A model generated the notes under the pieces. That model made no database searches, was not told the origin of the DNA, and saw only the letters and a list, made by a program, of their open reading frames with translations. Shown one piece after another: positions 17,143-29,311 of a DNA stretch of 64,000 nt. Every line of letters starts with the position of its first letter. Position 1 is the first letter of the stretch. The stretch comes from Patescibacteria group bacterium (GTDB taxonomy: Bacteria; Patescibacteriota; Microgenomatia; UBA1406; GWC2-37-13): assembly GCA_026415975.1 (NCBI GenBank), contig JAOAFZ010000002.1, positions 175,390 through 239,389 on the forward strand, in the 5' to 3' direction. The translations under genes were made by a program, and so were the position numbers.

Positions 17143-17943
17143 GTGGCCGGAAGTACGTTGGCGGCTCACCGAGTGCATCCCGCTGTGTGGAGCTGCATGC
17201 GCAACCGCATGAGGCAGGCGATGATGATGTACCGATGAAGGTATGGGTACAGCGGGTATTTCTTTTCCATGGATTCGGCGGTGTATTTCCATAGCGGTAC
17301 GCAGAGTAAGCACTACCAGTCCGCCGGTAAAAAGAAGCAACCCAAGCGGGGGCAGAAGCGCCTCGCTGTCACCGGTAAGCCACGCCCACCAGGAAACGCC
17401 GTCGGTCATAGCAATCCGGGCCATGGCAAACATAAGCGCCAGATACCCCAGCCTTAGCAGAACGCGCCACATCTCTTCCCCCAGGTTTCTTATGGCCAGG
17501 CGGTGCGAGATTACCGTCATAAATGTAAGAATTAGCAGTGTGGTGAGCGATGCATAGAGCGGTCCGGCAGTACGGGGATCGGAAACATACGTTTCCAGCC
17601 CAACGCGATACTCTGCATGAACAAGCATCAGGCCGAAATGCATGCTGGCATACAGCCACGCCAGCACGCCGAAATGCTTCCGGTAACCCATATACCGGTC
17701 CGCGAAATCCCAGAAATAACAGATCGAGCTCATTCCCATCGCACACAGGAGCAGAACAAGAGATGTGTACCCCAGAGCAATCTCAACAAACTGCGGCAGA
17801 AGCAACCCCCGGATCCCGCCGATGTAGAGTGCAGTTAGAATGTAGATATAGACGGCAAACACGATCGCCTGAAACCACATGGCGTCTTCATGAGTAATTC
17901 CCTTCATATCCCGCCACTCACGATAGGCTTTGATGATGTCCAT
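17107..17943 (-). CDS. Ferric-reductase-like transmembrane protein
   Basis: Membrane protein of 278 aa with about six helices. The His-bearing segments YRKHFGVLAWLYASMHFGLMLVH and VISHRLAIRNLGEEMWRVLLRLGYL match the pattern of the ferric-reductase/MsrQ (YedZ) family, where paired histidines hold heme b, though the second pair is less clear here. No NAD or flavin domain is present, so it would be a membrane electron carrier. The C-terminal 60 residues are a His/Ser/Arg-rich soluble tail that overlaps an opposing terminator. A TAAACT box ends 6 nt before the ATG. A second family member is at 49702-50343. Confidence 0.6.
   Translation of the reverse strand: MDIIKAYREWRDMKGITHEDAMWFQAIVFAVYIYILTALYIGGIRGLLLPQFVEIALGYTSLVLLLCAMGMSSICYFWDFADRYMGYRKHFGVLAWLYASMHFGLMLVHAEYRVGLETYVSDPRTAGPLYASLTTLLILTFMTVISHRLAIRNLGEEMWRVLLRLGYLALMFAMARIAMTDGVSWWAWLTGDSEALLPPLGLLLFTGGLVVLTLRTAMEIHRRIHGKEIPAVPIPSSVHHHRLPHAVAHAAPHSGMHSVSRQRTSGHKKSPAKLSSRG
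17109..17142 (+). terminator. Intrinsic terminator
   Basis: AGCCCC (17109-17114) pairs with GGGGCT (17131-17136) and is followed by an uninterrupted T-run to 17142 on the plus strand. Confidence 0.65.
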
Positions 17944-18051
17944 GAAACTAGTTTAGAAGAAGCGTGAGGGCATTGCAAGCGACGCCTGACCGGGGCAGTT
18001 GCGATGTGCTACAATAGGTATTCTCCCCTACTCAGGAAACCGTTTGCTTTA

Positions 18052-18135
18052 GCCGGGGTGGCGGAATTGGCAGACGCGCAGGTCTCAAAAACCTGTGGTG
18101 GCAACATCATGAGGGTTCGAGCCCCTCCCCCGGCA
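18052..18135 (+). tRNA. tRNA-Leu (anticodon CAA)
   Basis: Complete class II tRNA. The 7-bp acceptor stem is GCCGGGG (18052-18058) with CCCCGGC (18128-18134), and the discriminator is A. The anticodon stem CAGGT/ACCTG holds the loop CTCAAAA, giving anticodon CAA (codon UUG). A long variable arm follows, and the T-loop is GGTTCGAGCCC. CCA is not encoded. Confidence 0.95.
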
Positions 18136-18191
18136 CTTCCTTTCCACCGTTATTATTGAACAAACGTTCACTTGCGATGCGGTAGTTAAGA

Positions 18192-18244
18192 GCATATACT
18201 ATGCAATATATATTTAATATATTAGCAAATGCATATATTATGCA
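18192..18244 (+). promoter_or_regulatory. Paired palindromic operators of the toxin-antitoxin operon
   Basis: Two copies of a GCATA-N3-TATGC palindrome: 18192-18204 and the longer perfect TGCATA-TAT-TATGCA at 18230-18244, centred 39 bp apart. The second overlaps the antitoxin ATG at 18240. Ribbon-helix-helix antitoxins bind such short tandem palindromes to repress their own operon. Confidence 0.65.
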
Positions 18245-22065: not shown

Positions 22066-22722
22066 TTAGAAGCTCATCGGGACTATCTTGAGTTCCAGCT
22101 CTGCCAGATCTTCTTTTTTCAGCGAGAGTTTCCCCACCGGTTCAACTGCTTCCGCACCCATCGCGCTCATGAACTGATCAAGCGGAGCAAGTTTTCCGGC
22201 AAGTGACGGCGGTAGCTTGTCGTGCGCGTACCGCATGGGAATAATAATCGAAGGATCAAGTTTTTTAGCCATCGCGGCTGCTTCCTTCACATCTATGGTG
22301 CCGTAGCCGCCTACAGGTATCATAAGAATATCAACCTCACCAATCTCTTCAAGCAGCCTGGTATCTGCAATTGAACCAAGTTCGCCGCAGTGAACTGTCT
22401 GGATGCCCTCAATATCAAACTTGAAAATGACATTTTCAACACGCGCTTCCCCTTGGTTTTTGTCCCCACGGGACTGAATTCCGAAGATCCGGACGCCGTT
22501 TTTTTCGAACTCACCCGGCCAGTCAAAAACCATCGGCGATCCTTCGACGGAAGCGGCGGAGACGGTGCTGTCATGGCCATTTCCATGGGAGATAGTCACG
22601 ATATCCGCCTGTACCTTTGGCATCGGGATTCCGGCGGTTTTGGGATCAAAAGGATCAGTTACAATACGGCAATCGCGGGTTTTTATAAGGAAGGACGAAT
22701 GTCCGAAGTACGTTATTTCCAT
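22066..22722 (-). CDS. Metallo-beta-lactamase-fold hydrolase (variant active site)
   Basis: UlaG/UPF0173-like MBL-fold protein of 218 aa: it starts EITYFGHSSFLIKTRDCRIVTDPFDP, with later strands VHCGELGSI and a C-terminal IIPMRYAHDKLPP. The metal-binding motif that normally reads T-H-x-H-x-D-H appears as SHGNGHDS, so one His is Asn and the last Asp-His order is reversed. Activity may be altered, or a different metal set used. A TATGAT ends 8 nt before the ATG. The substrate is unknown. Confidence 0.7.
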   Translation of the reverse strand: MEITYFGHSSFLIKTRDCRIVTDPFDPKTAGIPMPKVQADIVTISHGNGHDSTVSAASVEGSPMVFDWPGEFEKNGVRIFGIQSRGDKNQGEARVENVIFKFDIEGIQTVHCGELGSIADTRLLEEIGEVDILMIPVGGYGTIDVKEAAAMAKKLDPSIIIPMRYAHDKLPPSLAGKLAPLDQFMSAMGAEAVEPVGKLSLKKEDLAELELKIVPMSF

Positions 22723-22805
22723 AGGAACCCATCATAGCAGACGCAGGCGAGATGCTCAAGACAGATCAGTATAGCGCTCCAGTATCTCTAAATTGCTTCG
22801 CTCAC

Positions 22806-22832
22806 AAAAAAGGCCGGCTACCCGGCCTTTTT
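22806..22832 (-). terminator. Bidirectional-type intrinsic terminator after hsp20
   Basis: A perfect AAGGCCGG/CCGGCCTT stem with a 4-nt loop, an A-run on its left and a T-run on its right, 18 nt past the hsp20 stop on the minus strand. It would also work in the plus direction. Confidence 0.85.
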
Positions 22833-22850
22833 ATGTACTCCAGCACCTTG

Positions 22851-23270
22851 TTACGCGGCTTTGACTGCGATCTTTTTGGCCTTCGCCTCCTCGGCAATCT
22901 TGGCGGTTACGGTTACGATACCGTCCCGTACGGTTGCCTGGATCGACGCCGCATCGATTGGACGCGGGAACGTGGTGCTGTAATCAAAAGAGGAAACGCG
23001 ATCGGCGCGGTATACAACCGTCTTCCGCTTCTTCTCCTCCTCCGATTCCTCGTGCCTGGCGTTGATGCGCAAAACGCCATCTTCGTAGGTAACCTCGACC
23101 TTATCGGCCGGAATCCCCGGGACGGCGGCCTTTACGTGTACGCTGTCCCCTTCTTCGTAGACATCCAGACCGGAGTTCCAGGTTACCTGGGGCCAGTCCA
23201 TGTCCTCGAATAACTCCCACGGACTTCTGCTCATCCAGCGGGCGAGCGGTGTGATAGTTCGTATTTTCAT
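22851..23270 (-). CDS. Small heat-shock protein (Hsp20/alpha-crystallin)
   Basis: Chaperone of 139 aa holding unfolded proteins. The alpha-crystallin domain runs from GLDVYEEGDSVHVKAAVPGI to AASIQATVRDGIVTVTAKI, with the A-x-x-x-n-G-v-L-type motif as RDGIVTV and a short C-terminal KKIAVKAA carrying an I-x-V anchor. ATG 23270 is preferred to GTG 23282. Unlike its neighbours it has a leader of about 70 nt. The promoter at 23351-23379 is overlaid by a CIRCE-like inverted repeat, so repression by an HrcA homologue is likely. Confidence 0.92.
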   Translation of the reverse strand: MKIRTITPLARWMSRSPWELFEDMDWPQVTWNSGLDVYEEGDSVHVKAAVPGIPADKVEVTYEDGVLRINARHEESEEEKKRKTVVYRADRVSSFDYSTTFPRPIDAASIQATVRDGIVTVTAKIAEEAKAKKIAVKAA

Positions 23271-23345
23271 ACGTGTGTGCACCTAAACTTATAACGAACT
23301 TCTAATGGGCGGGCGGATGCTGCAGCTTTCTGCCCTCATTCTCAT

Positions 23346-23372
23346 TTAGCAGTTTAGACAATTTTCTGCTAA
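23346..23372. promoter_or_regulatory. CIRCE-like operator
   Basis: A 27-bp inverted repeat with the exact 9-9-9 geometry of CIRCE (consensus TTAGCACTC-N9-GAGTGCTAA): TTAGCA at 23346-23351 and TGCTAA at 23367-23372, with the outer six positions matching and the inner three not. It covers the -10 and spacer of the hsp20 promoter. Confidence 0.65.
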
Positions 23373-23379
23373 TTGTCAA
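23351..23379 (-). promoter_or_regulatory. hsp20 promoter
   Basis: On the minus strand: TTGACA (complement of 23374-23379), a 17-nt spacer, and TAAACT (complement of 23351-23356). Near-consensus sigma-70 type rather than an alternative heat-shock sigma promoter, which fits control by a repressor. Confidence 0.75.
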
Positions 23380-23452
23380 GGGGGAATATTTTGCCACGAC
23401 GATACGGAGGCTAGCTCGCTTGATGCTCCAGGAGCTTACCCTCCCGCTTGCC

Positions 23453-25468: not shown

Positions 25469-26194
25469 ATGAAAAACATAAACCGTTTTATCGGAACGCT
25501 TGCACTTGCGATAGCCCTTGTGGCTTCTGCGGCCTCCGTTTCGGCTCAACAATATGGTTCAGGTCAGTATGGCACAGGGCCATACAGCACCGGATCATAT
25601 GGTCAACAGCCAACTCAACCAGAGCAACGTATTCTAGTCGATAAGCAGGTTGCCACCCCCGGTTCCGCAACCGGAAGTGCCGGCGAAACGGCCGGAGTGT
25701 ATAGAGACAATCTGCCACTATCTTATGAACGGTATCAGCCGGGTCAGGAGGTAGTGTTTCGCATTATTGTAAGGAATATCTCGAATGTCACCGTACAAAA
25801 CGTGGTTGTGCGCGATACCATCCCATCGTATGCTGAGCCGATGGTGGGACCAGGTATCTACGATGCCGCAACACGGACCGTAACGTACACGATTTCCCAG
25901 CTTCAGCCAAATGAGGAAAACGTCCAGTACGTGAAAATGAAAATCTTTGCTCAATCTCGGTTGCCTGCCAACGAAACAATCATTCGGCAGGTAAACACCG
26001 TAGAGGCACGGCTGGGCACTGAGCAGGATATCGATACCGCCCAGTACTTTATCGAGAAGCAGGTTGTTGGAGTTTCCAAAGTACCCGACACCGGTCCGGA
26101 GCTTGGATTGGCATTCCTCGCCCTTCAGGGCATTGGTCTTACCGTCGGGCTTAAACTGCGCCAGCACAGGGTTAATAGCCGACTTCAATTCTAG
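25469..26194 (+). CDS. Secreted DUF11-like protein with sortase sorting signal
   Basis: Surface protein of 241 aa. A signal peptide (FIGTLALAIALVASAASVSAQQ) is followed by a Gly/Tyr/Gln-rich low-complexity region, then a DUF11-type beta domain (YQPGQEVVFRIIVRNISNVTVQNVVVRDTIP) as found in cell-wall repeats. The end has an LPxTG-like motif, VPDTG, a hydrophobic stretch (LGLAFLALQGIGLTVGL) and a basic tail (KLRQHR), the three-part signal recognised by sortases. The sortase gene at 54935 in this window is a candidate partner. The perfect promoter suggests high expression. Confidence 0.8.
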   Translation: MKNINRFIGTLALAIALVASAASVSAQQYGSGQYGTGPYSTGSYGQQPTQPEQRILVDKQVATPGSATGSAGETAGVYRDNLPLSYERYQPGQEVVFRIIVRNISNVTVQNVVVRDTIPSYAEPMVGPGIYDAATRTVTYTISQLQPNEENVQYVKMKIFAQSRLPANETIIRQVNTVEARLGTEQDIDTAQYFIEKQVVGVSKVPDTGPELGLAFLALQGIGLTVGLKLRQHRVNSRLQF

Positions 26195-26244: not shown

Positions 26245-27468
26245 ATGTCAGAAAGACTTCGATGCTATCTTCAGCAACCGGTTTCCCGTCGTGATGCACT
26301 GAGTATTTTGGGTAATGTCGCACTCATAACTGCCGCAGGAGTCGCCCTCGGCGGTTCGGGGAGAATTGATAAGGGTTTTGATCGGCTCGTCGAACTTGCG
26401 GATTTTGTCCCACTGCAAAAACTGCGCGCTAGGTTCCGGGAAGTTACCGGCGTCGAGCTTCCAGCATACACTGGACTGGGTTTCAAGCTCGATGGCATAT
26501 TCGCCACCGGAGTGCGAACGCCGTCCGCGGAGCAAGATGCCCGGTATCTTGCAACAGCATGGGCAACCCGCATACCGGAACTGCAGACCACCAGCCGGTC
26601 GATCGACATGTCCGGTCTGCCTCCCGAAAACCAGCAGATCGCGCTTGCATTTCTTGAAGAAATGTATCGCCTCTTTCCGGTATTGAACGTTACGTCGCCG
26701 CCGAAAATACTGATCCAATCCGATACCGACTGGTACTGCGGCGCACCGACCATCGGCTGTACCGACGGGAGCGTTATGGCTATTGATTATTTGTCGGATC
26801 GCCGTTCGACGGTGTTCGTGTTTCTGCACGAGCAGGCCCACGAGCTAGACTGGGATATGGACAACATTGTCCCTTATGTCCATCGCGAACATGCGGTCCA
26901 GCATGTGGGCGATATGTTTCAGTTTTTCCATGATTTAGTCAACGAGGTGCAAACTGCTCACCCGTTCGATCTGATGGATTGCGGTTTGTTTTACTTCGCC
27001 TACCCTGAGGCGAGAATCGATGAGGATGGCAAACCGGTGGGATCTATGAGTAGAGCGTTCTATCCCTGCTTGGATCTACTGCAACCGTTCCTCGGACCGA
27101 ACGACATCCCGGCAGAAGTGTCATCCGAACGCCATCCCAAAACCTTCTTTCACCGCATGCGCCTGCCGCTTTTCCGAAAAGCACTGCAGATGGCAGCAAA
27201 TGGCACACTGATAGACGGCGTCCCCGCCCGGGAACACCCGGCAGTGCAGGCATACCTTGATGCTGGATTCCGGTACTTTCACCATATCATGAGCGATCCC
27301 CAGCTTGCCAAACAGCCGGACCCTTTTACCCAGGAAAATCCCTTTAGCAATCGGCTCTTTGAATGGAAAACCCGGATTTCGATGTCAAGACTCCAGATGT
27401 GGTCGCTCGGCAAAATCCCCGCGTCCACCCCAATTGCCGATGTTTGGAGGCTCCTCAAACTCTCCTAA
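26245..27468 (+). CDS. Putative Tat-exported zinc metallopeptidase-like protein
   Basis: Protein of 407 aa that I do not recognise as a named family. The N-terminus has a twin-arginine motif (SRRDAL, R15-R16) before a hydrophobic segment (ILGNVALITAAGVALGG), suggesting export in folded form. The centre has a zincin motif HEQAH at residues 195-199 (FVFLHEQAHELDWDMD), with further His/Asp/Glu in the following helices (VHREHAVQHVGDMF) as possible third ligands. A Cys pair (WYCGAPTIGC) sits shortly before. TATACT at 26223-26228 is 16 nt upstream of the ATG. Enzymatic activity is inferred only. Confidence 0.5.
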   Translation: MSERLRCYLQQPVSRRDALSILGNVALITAAGVALGGSGRIDKGFDRLVELADFVPLQKLRARFREVTGVELPAYTGLGFKLDGIFATGVRTPSAEQDARYLATAWATRIPELQTTSRSIDMSGLPPENQQIALAFLEEMYRLFPVLNVTSPPKILIQSDTDWYCGAPTIGCTDGSVMAIDYLSDRRSTVFVFLHEQAHELDWDMDNIVPYVHREHAVQHVGDMFQFFHDLVNEVQTAHPFDLMDCGLFYFAYPEARIDEDGKPVGSMSRAFYPCLDLLQPFLGPNDIPAEVSSERHPKTFFHRMRLPLFRKALQMAANGTLIDGVPAREHPAVQAYLDAGFRYFHHIMSDPQLAKQPDPFTQENPFSNRLFEWKTRISMSRLQMWSLGKIPASTPIADVWRLLKLS

Positions 27469-27524: not shown

Positions 27525-27553
27525 TTGACATTTTATAGGTTATTTGATACAAT
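27525..27553 (+). promoter_or_regulatory. Consensus promoter of the palindrome-rich gene
   Basis: TTGACA at 27525-27530, a 17-nt spacer and TACAAT at 27548-27553. The predicted start near 27560 leaves a leader of about 190 nt, unusual in this window. Confidence 0.75.
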
Positions 27554-27640
27554 AGCCTGGGTCATGATAAGCTACGCTTACATGACGCACCATAACAACC
27601 GAGCGAAAAAGGAAGGAAAAGTGGATGTGGAAGCACGTAT

Positions 27641-27710
27641 GCACTTGCCCACCCCCTTATGGGTATATACCAAAAAAAGTATGTGCCTATAAGGGGGTAT
27701 GGGCGAGTGC
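27641..27710 (+). repeat. Giant leader hairpin
   Basis: A 70-nt hairpin with an A-rich loop. Outer stem GCACT/AGTGC and GCCC/GGGC, a small internal loop, then CCCCCTTAT/ATAAGGGGG, continued by GGGTATATAC with GTATGTGCCT through several G-U pairs: about 30 bp in all. It ends 30 nt before the Shine-Dalgarno of the gene at 27752. Confidence 0.8.
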
Positions 27711-27751
27711 AACTGGTGCACTGCCCCGCTGCCCCGGAACAGGAGGATTCC

Positions 27752-28285
27752 GTGAGCATACTGAAAGGTCTGTTGTACGCTGTGTTCTACTTCGTGGGGA
27801 TTACCATCCTCACGATGATGGGGCTCCTCGCCATCGGCGCGGGGGCCTGGATGGCGGCCTCGGTGTTGACACCGAGACCGACCATTACGCCGTCCGATAC
27901 ACCAACCCCTACAGCAACCCCGACACCAACCACGATGACGACCGCACCGAGGGCAATGACGACCGAGGAGGCCAAGAGCCTGATCGGGGTGGACGTCCAA
28001 CGGCTAGCAACTGAGCCAAACGCCTGGGTCTTCCGGGACCCAGAGGGTGCGGTGCGGAGGGTGCGGTGTCCGAGAGAATTTGTTTGTACGCTGGACACCG
28101 GCGAAGCTGGAATCTTCGTGTACATCGGAGATTCCACCCTGAACGTCCCTGCGCGTGCAGGGACGTTCAGGTTCAGGCTGGATGTCGACTCCTGCACCCT
28201 GCTCCGTAAGGAGCAGGAAAACGGCAGGAGGGAGCGGCCTGCATTCGAAGTTGCCCCTGGCAACTTCGAATGCCCCCCCCAATAG
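27752..28285 (+). CDS. Membrane-anchored protein with palindrome-saturated coding sequence
   Basis: Unrecognised 177-aa protein: GTG start, one membrane helix (VFYFVGITILTMMGLLAIGAGAW), a Thr/Pro linker with TPTP repeats, and a C-terminal domain with four Cys (VRRVRCPREFVCTLDTGEAG ... DSCTLL ... NFECPPQ). The start is set by a perfect AGGAGG at 27741-27746, 5 nt upstream, in contrast to the leaderless genes around it. The DNA is far richer in GC than its neighbours and carries at least eight perfect or near-perfect hairpins within the reading frame. The domain plan matches other surface proteins in the window, so the frame is probably real, but acquisition from elsewhere is possible. Confidence 0.6.
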   Translation: MSILKGLLYAVFYFVGITILTMMGLLAIGAGAWMAASVLTPRPTITPSDTPTPTATPTPTTMTTAPRAMTTEEAKSLIGVDVQRLATEPNAWVFRDPEGAVRRVRCPREFVCTLDTGEAGIFVYIGDSTLNVPARAGTFRFRLDVDSCTLLRKEQENGRRERPAFEVAPGNFECPPQ

Positions 28286-28327
28286 CTCGGTAGGGGGGGG
28301 GCGCGCCCAAAGCGCGCCGCCCCCCCC
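28024..28327 (+). repeat. Array of perfect hairpins
   Basis: In order: 28024-28043 (7-bp CTGGGTC/GACCCAG), 28064-28100 (8 bp), 28108-28136 (8 bp), 28138-28171 (15 bp, 4-nt loop), 28198-28217 (8 bp, GTAA loop), 28241-28273 (15 bp, 3-nt loop), and 28293-28327 (G-run/C-run stem after the stop codon). A further hairpin lies earlier in the gene, CTCGGTG/CACCGAG at 27859-27876. Confidence 0.85.
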
Positions 28328-28450
28328 ACCCCCTTACACCTAAACACTTCTTTCAATAGGCGCATTTTCAGGCACCTTTTACCCCCGCGCTCTCCTTGTG
28401 CCTGATTCCTCTTAATATGAAGGGTATCTCCCTTTCTCCTCGAATACCCC

Positions 28451-28479
28451 TTGACAACTATGTAATAATAATATATACT
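28451..28479 (+). promoter_or_regulatory. Promoter of glycan locus, leaderless
   Basis: TTGACA at 28451-28456, a 17-nt spacer, TATACT at 28474-28479, then 7 nt to the ATG. The sequence around the -35 (TACCCCTTGACAACTAT) is identical to that at 41265-41281. Confidence 0.8.
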
Positions 28480-28486
28480 ATGGGAT

Positions 28487-29311
28487 ATGAAACGAATGCA
28501 AGTAAACGTTACGAAAGGCAAACCTCTCATAAGCGTCAGTTTCGTTATCCCGGTGTATAACGAAGAAGATCGTATCGGCACAACCTTAACCGCACTCAAG
28601 CAATTGCGCATGCCGGCCGGACTTACGCTTAAGGAAGTGATCTTCATAAACGACGGTAGTAAAGACAAAACGACTGCGGCAATCAATAAAGCAAAAGCTG
28701 GTCTCAAGAAAAAACTGAAGGCTCGCATTACCCTAGTTTCTTACGATCACAACCGTGGTAAGGGCTATGCGGTCCGGGTTGGTATGCTTACCTCGGATGC
28801 CGATTACACTCTGTTTTTCGATGCCGATATATCCACCCCGCTGGACCAGCTCCGGAAATTCGCCGCGCCAATGCGTCACGGAGCGGATGTTATTATTGGT
28901 ACCCGGAAAAACGGAAAATCTACGGTGCTGGTGCACCAACCCTGGTATCGGCAATTGCTGGGTAAGGGGTTTACACTGCTATCTAATATTGTTATGAACG
29001 TATGGGTAAACGACTTTACCTGTGGCTTTAAAGCGTTTTCACGCGAGGCACTGTATCAGGTGTTTACCCATGCGCGTATCAATCGCTGGGGCTATGATTC
29101 GGAGATCCTGTTTTTGGCAAAGAAATTCGGCTATACCATCTGTCAGATTCCCGTTACCTGGTCAAACGACGAGCGTACTAAGGTGGATCTATCGAAAGCG
29201 GTGTTCTCTACCCTGCACGAGCTATATACGATTCGCAGAAACGATGCAAACGGGCTGTATAGTCGTAGGTGTAGTACCCGAATAAAGAAGTTTACCCCTA
29301 TTGTCGCTTAA
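28487..29311 (+). CDS. GT2-family glycosyltransferase (ALG5/DPM1-like)
   Basis: Inverting transferase (274 aa) probably making a polyprenyl-phosphate sugar. GT-A motifs are present: VSFVIPVYNEEDRIGTTL, INDGSKDKT, HNRGKGYAVRVGM, the metal-binding DADISTPLDQL and the dolichyl-phosphate-glucose synthase type FTCGFKAFSREA...GYDSEILFLAKKFGY. It has no C-terminal membrane helices. It would supply lipid-linked donors for the GT-C membrane proteins downstream. Start ATG 28487 is the first codon after a leaderless promoter. Confidence 0.85.
   Translation: MKRMQVNVTKGKPLISVSFVIPVYNEEDRIGTTLTALKQLRMPAGLTLKEVIFINDGSKDKTTAAINKAKAGLKKKLKARITLVSYDHNRGKGYAVRVGMLTSDADYTLFFDADISTPLDQLRKFAAPMRHGADVIIGTRKNGKSTVLVHQPWYRQLLGKGFTLLSNIVMNVWVNDFTCGFKAFSREALYQVFTHARINRWGYDSEILFLAKKFGYTICQIPVTWSNDERTKVDLSKAVFSTLHELYTIRRNDANGLYSRRCSTRIKKFTPIVA

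Follow-up and report, generated by a model that had tools for sequence, protein, structure and literature searches.

The window, the whole 64-kb stretch of DNA analysed here, comes from a 1.31-Mb genome of the Microgenomatia, in the Candidate Phyla Radiation, and carries on its forward strand a short gene whose transcript is dense in hairpins. A promoter-like site, TTGACA-17-TACAAT (27525-27553; 11 of 12 consensus matches, with TG preceding the second hexamer), is followed by a 5'-terminal stem-loop seen in the leader fold (27561-27586), at or a few nt from the likely transcription start as placed from the promoter. Next come a leader hairpin of 72 nt with about 31 bp and a 2-nt bulge (27640-27711), a Shine-Dalgarno sequence AGGAGG (27741-27746) and an ORF of 177 codons (27752-28285; GTG start at 27752, stop at 28283-28285). 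A search for perfect stems places five in the ORF: 7 bp with a loop of 4 nt (27859-27876), 7 bp with a loop of 6 nt (28024-28043), 15 bp with a loop of 4 nt (28138-28171), 8 bp with a loop of 4 nt (28198-28217) and 15 bp with a loop of 3 nt (28241-28273). The transcript fold adds a stem of 11 Watson-Crick and G-U pairs (28108-28136) and, after the stop, a G/C-clamped hairpin (28293-28327), which lacks a U-run and was not called by the terminator scan. An earlier, sequence-only reading of this DNA had described the promoter, the leader hairpin, AGGAGG, the GTG start, the two 15-bp stems and the G/C stem behind the stop codon, and all of these hold with small shifts in coordinates. It had made the leader hairpin too short, however, at 70 nt (27641-27710), and the 5'-terminal stem-loop comes in addition. 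The mirrored reading frame to which it drew attention (FEVAPGNFE) is there, but as a by-product of the perfect palindrome.

Upstream lie a DUF11 surface gene (25469-26194, forward strand; Pfam PF01345), whose product ends in VPDTGPELGL and which is a recurrent neighbour across the family described below, and a gene (26245-27468) without a Pfam match that encodes an HExxH-like HEQAH motif, possibly of a metallopeptidase. Downstream, a family-2 glycosyltransferase gene (28487-29311, forward strand; Pfam PF00535) has a promoter-like site of its own (28451-28479). In the Pfam check of the neighbours, which returned the DUF11 protein, glycosyltransferases and the unmatched protein, no integrase, transposase or reverse transcriptase was noticed.

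As read from its sequence, the product of 177 aa consists of one N-terminal transmembrane (TM) segment, a Pro/Thr linker and a C-terminal domain; the coding sequence for this conserved domain (27947-28282) was delimited from alignments A3 and A7 and from the AlphaFold2 model. Neither Pfam nor NCBIfam gave a convincing match, and a sequence search of the PDB returned only weak ones (best E 0.018). AlphaFold2 confidently predicts a fold of mixed alpha/beta type (pLDDT 92.2, as for the conserved domain, and 94.2), for which a fold search of the PDB and BFVD found no match at E<=0.001. The confident model makes it very probable that the ORF encodes a real protein, and without such a match its domain appears to be undescribed.

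Profile and sequence searches identified 14 relatives in other Microgenomatia genomes (L012, L013, L034, L038-L047 and L099), with organism names that include Candidatus Roizmanbacteria and Candidatus Gottesmanbacteria. The most divergent, L044-L047, owe their membership to profile E values of about 1e-8 to 1e-9, and the start codons of the relatives were picked by eye. The spread is patchy: among 380 sampled genomes of the phylum the gene occurred in the window genome and in one genome of the same class only, and within one genus a single species carried the family out of the eight sampled. DNA and protein searches of phages, plasmids and viral contigs yielded no relative. Most relatives whose flanks were read lie downstream of a DUF11 protein with a PxTGPE-type end and upstream of glycosyltransferases. 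Because three genomes without the family have an unrelated TM-plus-linker protein directly upstream of a related GT2 gene, the site beside the DUF11 and glycosyltransferase genes seems to host exchangeable surface proteins that differ by lineage. These three proteins, at L069:62-1021, L074:501-1508 and L076:452-1099, mark a possible exchange site.

The claim that the transcript is unusually rich in hairpins is borne out by folding. The window ORF reaches -233.4 kcal/mol against -174.2 +/- 9.0 kcal/mol for codon-preserving shuffles (z -6.6), making it 34% more stable than these versions, in which synonymous codons are permuted while the protein, codon usage and GC content stay unchanged. The sequence-only reading would have regarded the structure as incidental if shuffles with the same codons folded as stably; none of 100 did. 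The five perfect stems of at least 7 bp compare with 0.26 expected from the codon shuffles, and the leader (27560-27751) is likewise far more stable than 200 dinucleotide shuffles (-87.7 vs -53.0 +/- 3.9 kcal/mol, z -8.9). For its excess the ORF ranks first of 106, 7.1 sd off the remaining ORFs, the set being simple ORF calls from the window and from four sampled 20-kb stretches of the same genome; among the controls GC3 and folding excess are uncorrelated (r -0.06). Pairing in the transcript is mostly local, with a median span of 25 nt.

That nothing nearby approaches this density also holds. In a sliding scan of the whole window (120 nt at a time, against dinucleotide shuffles) the stretch from 27.6 to 28.4 kb averages 12.1 kcal/mol below its shuffles and is by far the most structured of the 64 kb, against a mean of 0.8 below (sd 1.6) for the window and 4.5 below for the next best stretch. 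Perfect stems of at least 12 bp with loops of 3-12 nt are confined, over the 64 kb, to the two 15-bp stems of the ORF. The window's second most structured stretch (22621-23401), judged by eye, probably holds a minus-strand Hsp20-like gene. An Rfam scan of the window gene gave no real family, its miRNA-like hits being generic hairpin matches far below gathering. In its own genome the sole full match to the gene is the gene itself, so that a MITE or REP repeat is rejected.

All 14 relatives fold more stably than their own codon shuffles (z -1.6 to -8.1), the weakest modestly (L041, z -1.6 to -1.9). In the five with sampled controls the excess ranks 1/36, 2/30, 2/30, 4/29 and 1/12, and GC3 ranks first in four of them. 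GC3 is raised in the relatives regardless of host GC (in G011, 0.52 vs 0.16). L099, which came to light once the property was already defined, has z -4.9 and a GC3 of 0.66 against 0.24-0.35 in its neighbours. Strong hairpins are also predicted in the leaders and trailers of the relatives. EF-Tu genes from these genomes lack the property (mean z -1.2, with a GC3 close to that of the genome as a whole), which disfavours abundance or high expression as its cause and sets it apart from the folding of highly expressed housekeeping-type mRNAs. It is absent, too, from the genes of the three unrelated TM-plus-linker proteins described above (z 0.02, -0.5 and -1.8), which occupy the equivalent site, and an effect of the site is thus rejected. 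Some excess is found in the neighbouring DUF11 surface genes of several genomes. Two other genes with ordinary GC3 show a strong excess, a DnaJ-like ORF (L086:98-1114, minus strand; z -7.4) and a glycosyltransferase gene (L064:8603-9946; z -6.7).

The individual stems are another matter. In the closest trio (L044, L045 and L047) single stems are mostly not kept, and the covariation that the sequence-only reading had proposed to look for is weak: double changes that compensate each other are slightly in excess, about half being kept against about a third with slid partners. Its suggestion that a structured RNA might double as the message for a surface protein is half right: the protein is real, but a fixed RNA structure is not conserved. 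The same reading had held that homologues with the protein but not the stems would speak for incidental structure; stem by stem this is the case, but the degree of folding is kept, and the structure therefore does not look incidental. Since the degree is maintained while individual stems are not, selection is diffuse and acts on the amount of folding, not on a specific RNA motif. In this form, selection of the gene for mRNA structure, another suggestion of that reading, is supported by the failure of the codon-preserving controls to fold alike and by an excess in every relative. The 3' flanks of the same trio contain, after the stop, a conserved and elaborate structured element (TACCCGACCGAGGGC...GCCGGGTA and onward) without a match in Rfam.

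Selection on the RNA should, through G-U pairing, favour folding of the coding strand over that of its complement. We compared the strands in 23 hairpin-rich genes, namely 14 family members (the window gene included, L099 left out) and nine further genes of an island in genome G343. The coding strand folds better in 20 of the 23 (p = 0.0005, although the nine share one island and are not fully independent) and the bias persists in the 14 family members alone (p = 0.03), whereas 92 control genes divide 51 to 41 (p = 0.19). Over the gene set this bias points to RNA as the target. The window gene itself, whose longest stems contain nothing but Watson-Crick pairs, is for that reason neutral (-0.109 vs -0.116 kcal/mol/nt), and in L099 the antisense z is slightly stronger.

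Three relatives have, in addition, a putative hammerhead-type element downstream of the gene, about 60, 150 and 345 nt after the stop in G343, G262 and G234, respectively. A strict scan of 452 kb gave eight hits (seven distinct, as two loci overlap), all at these three loci, and none in three shuffled sets; as judged from sequence, the hits fit the type III hammerhead pattern, with the core CUGANGA and GAAA and stems I, II and III. The best Rfam score for RF00008 is 34.4 bits and does not reach the gathering score of 48.5. By Rfam and the strict scan the window transcript has neither the hammerhead core nor its stems, and 12 of the 15 members, the window gene included, are without a recognised ribozyme. 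Outside G343, the elements 3' of the family members lie at L100:4393-4460 and L067:4278-4365, before the GT2 gene. On the minus strand of L067 (16969-18761) a 23S rRNA gene is split by about 0.9 kb with a homing-endonuclease-like ORF (17571-18206).

The G343 island spans about 14 kb (L102, or G343:C5:12000-25000, on the minus strand, together with L106:778-842). Its GC-rich stretches are mostly at 50-64% GC, against about 40% outside, and an AT-richer DUF11 gene is embedded in it. The ten GC-rich genes, the family member among them, all fold better than their shuffles (z -1.4 to -9.3). A G/C hairpin closes several of them, and behind most comes a hammerhead-type element in the same orientation. 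Seven matches to a loose core pattern and one copy with a changed core were found, of which five pass the strict scan, and in the upstream part of the array consecutive hammerheads are about 0.4-1.3 kb apart. One gene of the island looks cupredoxin-like.

From the computed coding capacity, folding excess, its conservation, the coding-strand bias over the gene set and the hammerhead-type elements in relatives, we infer an RNase-armoured, long-lived mRNA for an exchangeable membrane-anchored surface protein, a reading whose chances, with the stability and benefit that it supposes, we judge to be about even. The window gene would be a monocistronic accessory gene whose leader, coding region and trailer are selected for local stem-loops through synonymous codons and elevated GC, with pairing partners largely free as long as total pairing is maintained. 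A 5'-terminal stem-loop, a paired body and a G/C-clamped 3' hairpin would leave endo- and exonucleases scant single-stranded RNA, and the long-lived mRNA may keep slow-growing cells supplied with the surface protein. In the three relatives, the mRNA would end in a 2',3'-cyclic phosphate after hammerhead cleavage, and the downstream RNA would begin with a 5'-hydroxyl group and be capped by a stem-loop. Against an armoured mRNA stand the missing strand bias of the window gene, ribosome-binding sites that are not clearly open (0.44 vs 0.40 unpaired, p 0.12), the poor conservation of the stems, the modest excess of L041 and the existence of other genes with a strong excess.

The structure could instead have a DNA-level origin, with template switching perfecting imperfect inverted repeats, or with the gene moving or recombining as folded single-stranded DNA, and the folding of the RNA as a by-product. 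We consider this rather unlikely as a general account, although template switching is a possible contributor to the window copy. The stems there are unusually perfect (15, 15, 8, 7 and 7 bp), the gene is without strand bias, and in each 15-bp stem one arm encodes a protein stretch (AGT.R and GNF.C, respectively) that relatives conserve, whereas the opposite arm is different, as though it had been copied. However, only the window copy has long perfect stems and the relatives have their excess without them, a DNA process would not be expected to give the coding-strand bias of the whole set, and the hammerhead-type elements of relatives work as RNA only. The attC-like recombination substrate that the sequence-only reading had offered as one option finds no support in a gene that is single in its genome, with no integrase or transposase noticed among its neighbours and, across the set, a larger excess on the coding strand.

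Pacing of translation, in which hairpins slow ribosomes for the co-translational export and folding of a membrane-anchored protein, is unlikely on the present evidence. It would agree with the signal-like or TM N-termini of the products and with the excess in neighbouring DUF11 surface genes. Yet structure is as dense in the leaders and trailers as within the coding region, the unrelated TM-plus-linker proteins that occupy the equivalent site are free of excess, and some strongly folded genes of the G343 island have no evident signal or TM start. Distinctly improbable, in our judgement, is an unrecognised class of Microgenomatia accessory genes in which the RNA itself is selected, as self-paired mRNAs, cut by hammerheads in some lineages, that endure, form circles or are even handed from cell to cell; the surface proteins would then be cargo and the window gene a promoter-driven member without a ribozyme.

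A recently acquired GC-rich gene, with folding as a mere effect of GC, is very unlikely: GC3 is indeed far from that of the host in each well-sampled relative and the distribution is patchy, but the excess is lost in shuffles that retain GC and codon usage and does not follow GC3 in the controls, both of which disfavour GC content as the cause, and a GC-rich donor was not found in the collections searched. We give hardly any credence to the idea that these genes derive from viroid-like (Obelisk-like) coding RNAs, as their DNA copies or as captured relatives. Although the hammerhead-type elements, the dense pairing of the RNA strand, a composition unlike that of the host and the units between hammerheads in the upstream G343 array would suit this, the window transcript folds mostly locally and not as a rod, the chromosomal neighbours are conserved, the window copy has its own promoter and Shine-Dalgarno sequence, no reverse transcriptase was noticed nearby and most members are without a recognised ribozyme.

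The armoured-mRNA reading, if right, would extend a folding phenomenon of RNA viruses to cellular genes, would point to very stable surface-protein messengers in some bacteria with small genomes, and would supply a context for prokaryotic hammerhead ribozymes; the protein domain, too, has neither a Pfam match nor a relative of solved structure. The idea is directly testable with recoded transcripts. In the open-access full-text papers searched we found no bacterial gene family defined by the folding of its whole transcript.

Among known systems, the ompA mRNA of E. coli is a surface-protein message with 5'-terminal hairpins upstream of the Shine-Dalgarno sequence, its stabilising structure lying in the leader. 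The window gene resembles it in the surface protein and in the 5'-terminal hairpins before the Shine-Dalgarno sequence, but its coding region and trailer are folded too. Hammerhead ribozymes of prokaryotes, whose roles have been described as open (PMC6155905), share with the loci of three relatives the core CUGAUGA...GAAA and three stems (RF00008); in contrast, the window gene has none, the G343 elements trail most genes of a folded array, and the elements stay below the RF00008 gathering score. Obelisks are strongly self-paired, protein-coding RNAs of about 1 kb in bacteria (PMC11922315; PMC13096302) and in these traits similar to the window transcript, whereas the latter comes from a chromosomal DNA gene and forms mostly local hairpins rather than a rod. 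A further parallel is genome-scale ordered RNA structure (GORS), for which virologists have described a constant degree of folding with changing detail (PMC7642675). As in GORS, the window RNA folds far below order-shuffled controls along its whole length, and its family keeps the total folding while positions and partners change. The window gene differs in lying on a bacterial chromosome, among conserved gene neighbours and with no viral relative found, and the 34% excess of its ORF is above the 7-15% given for viruses, a comparison across different shuffling methods. The window gene works like GORS, although we do not file it as such.
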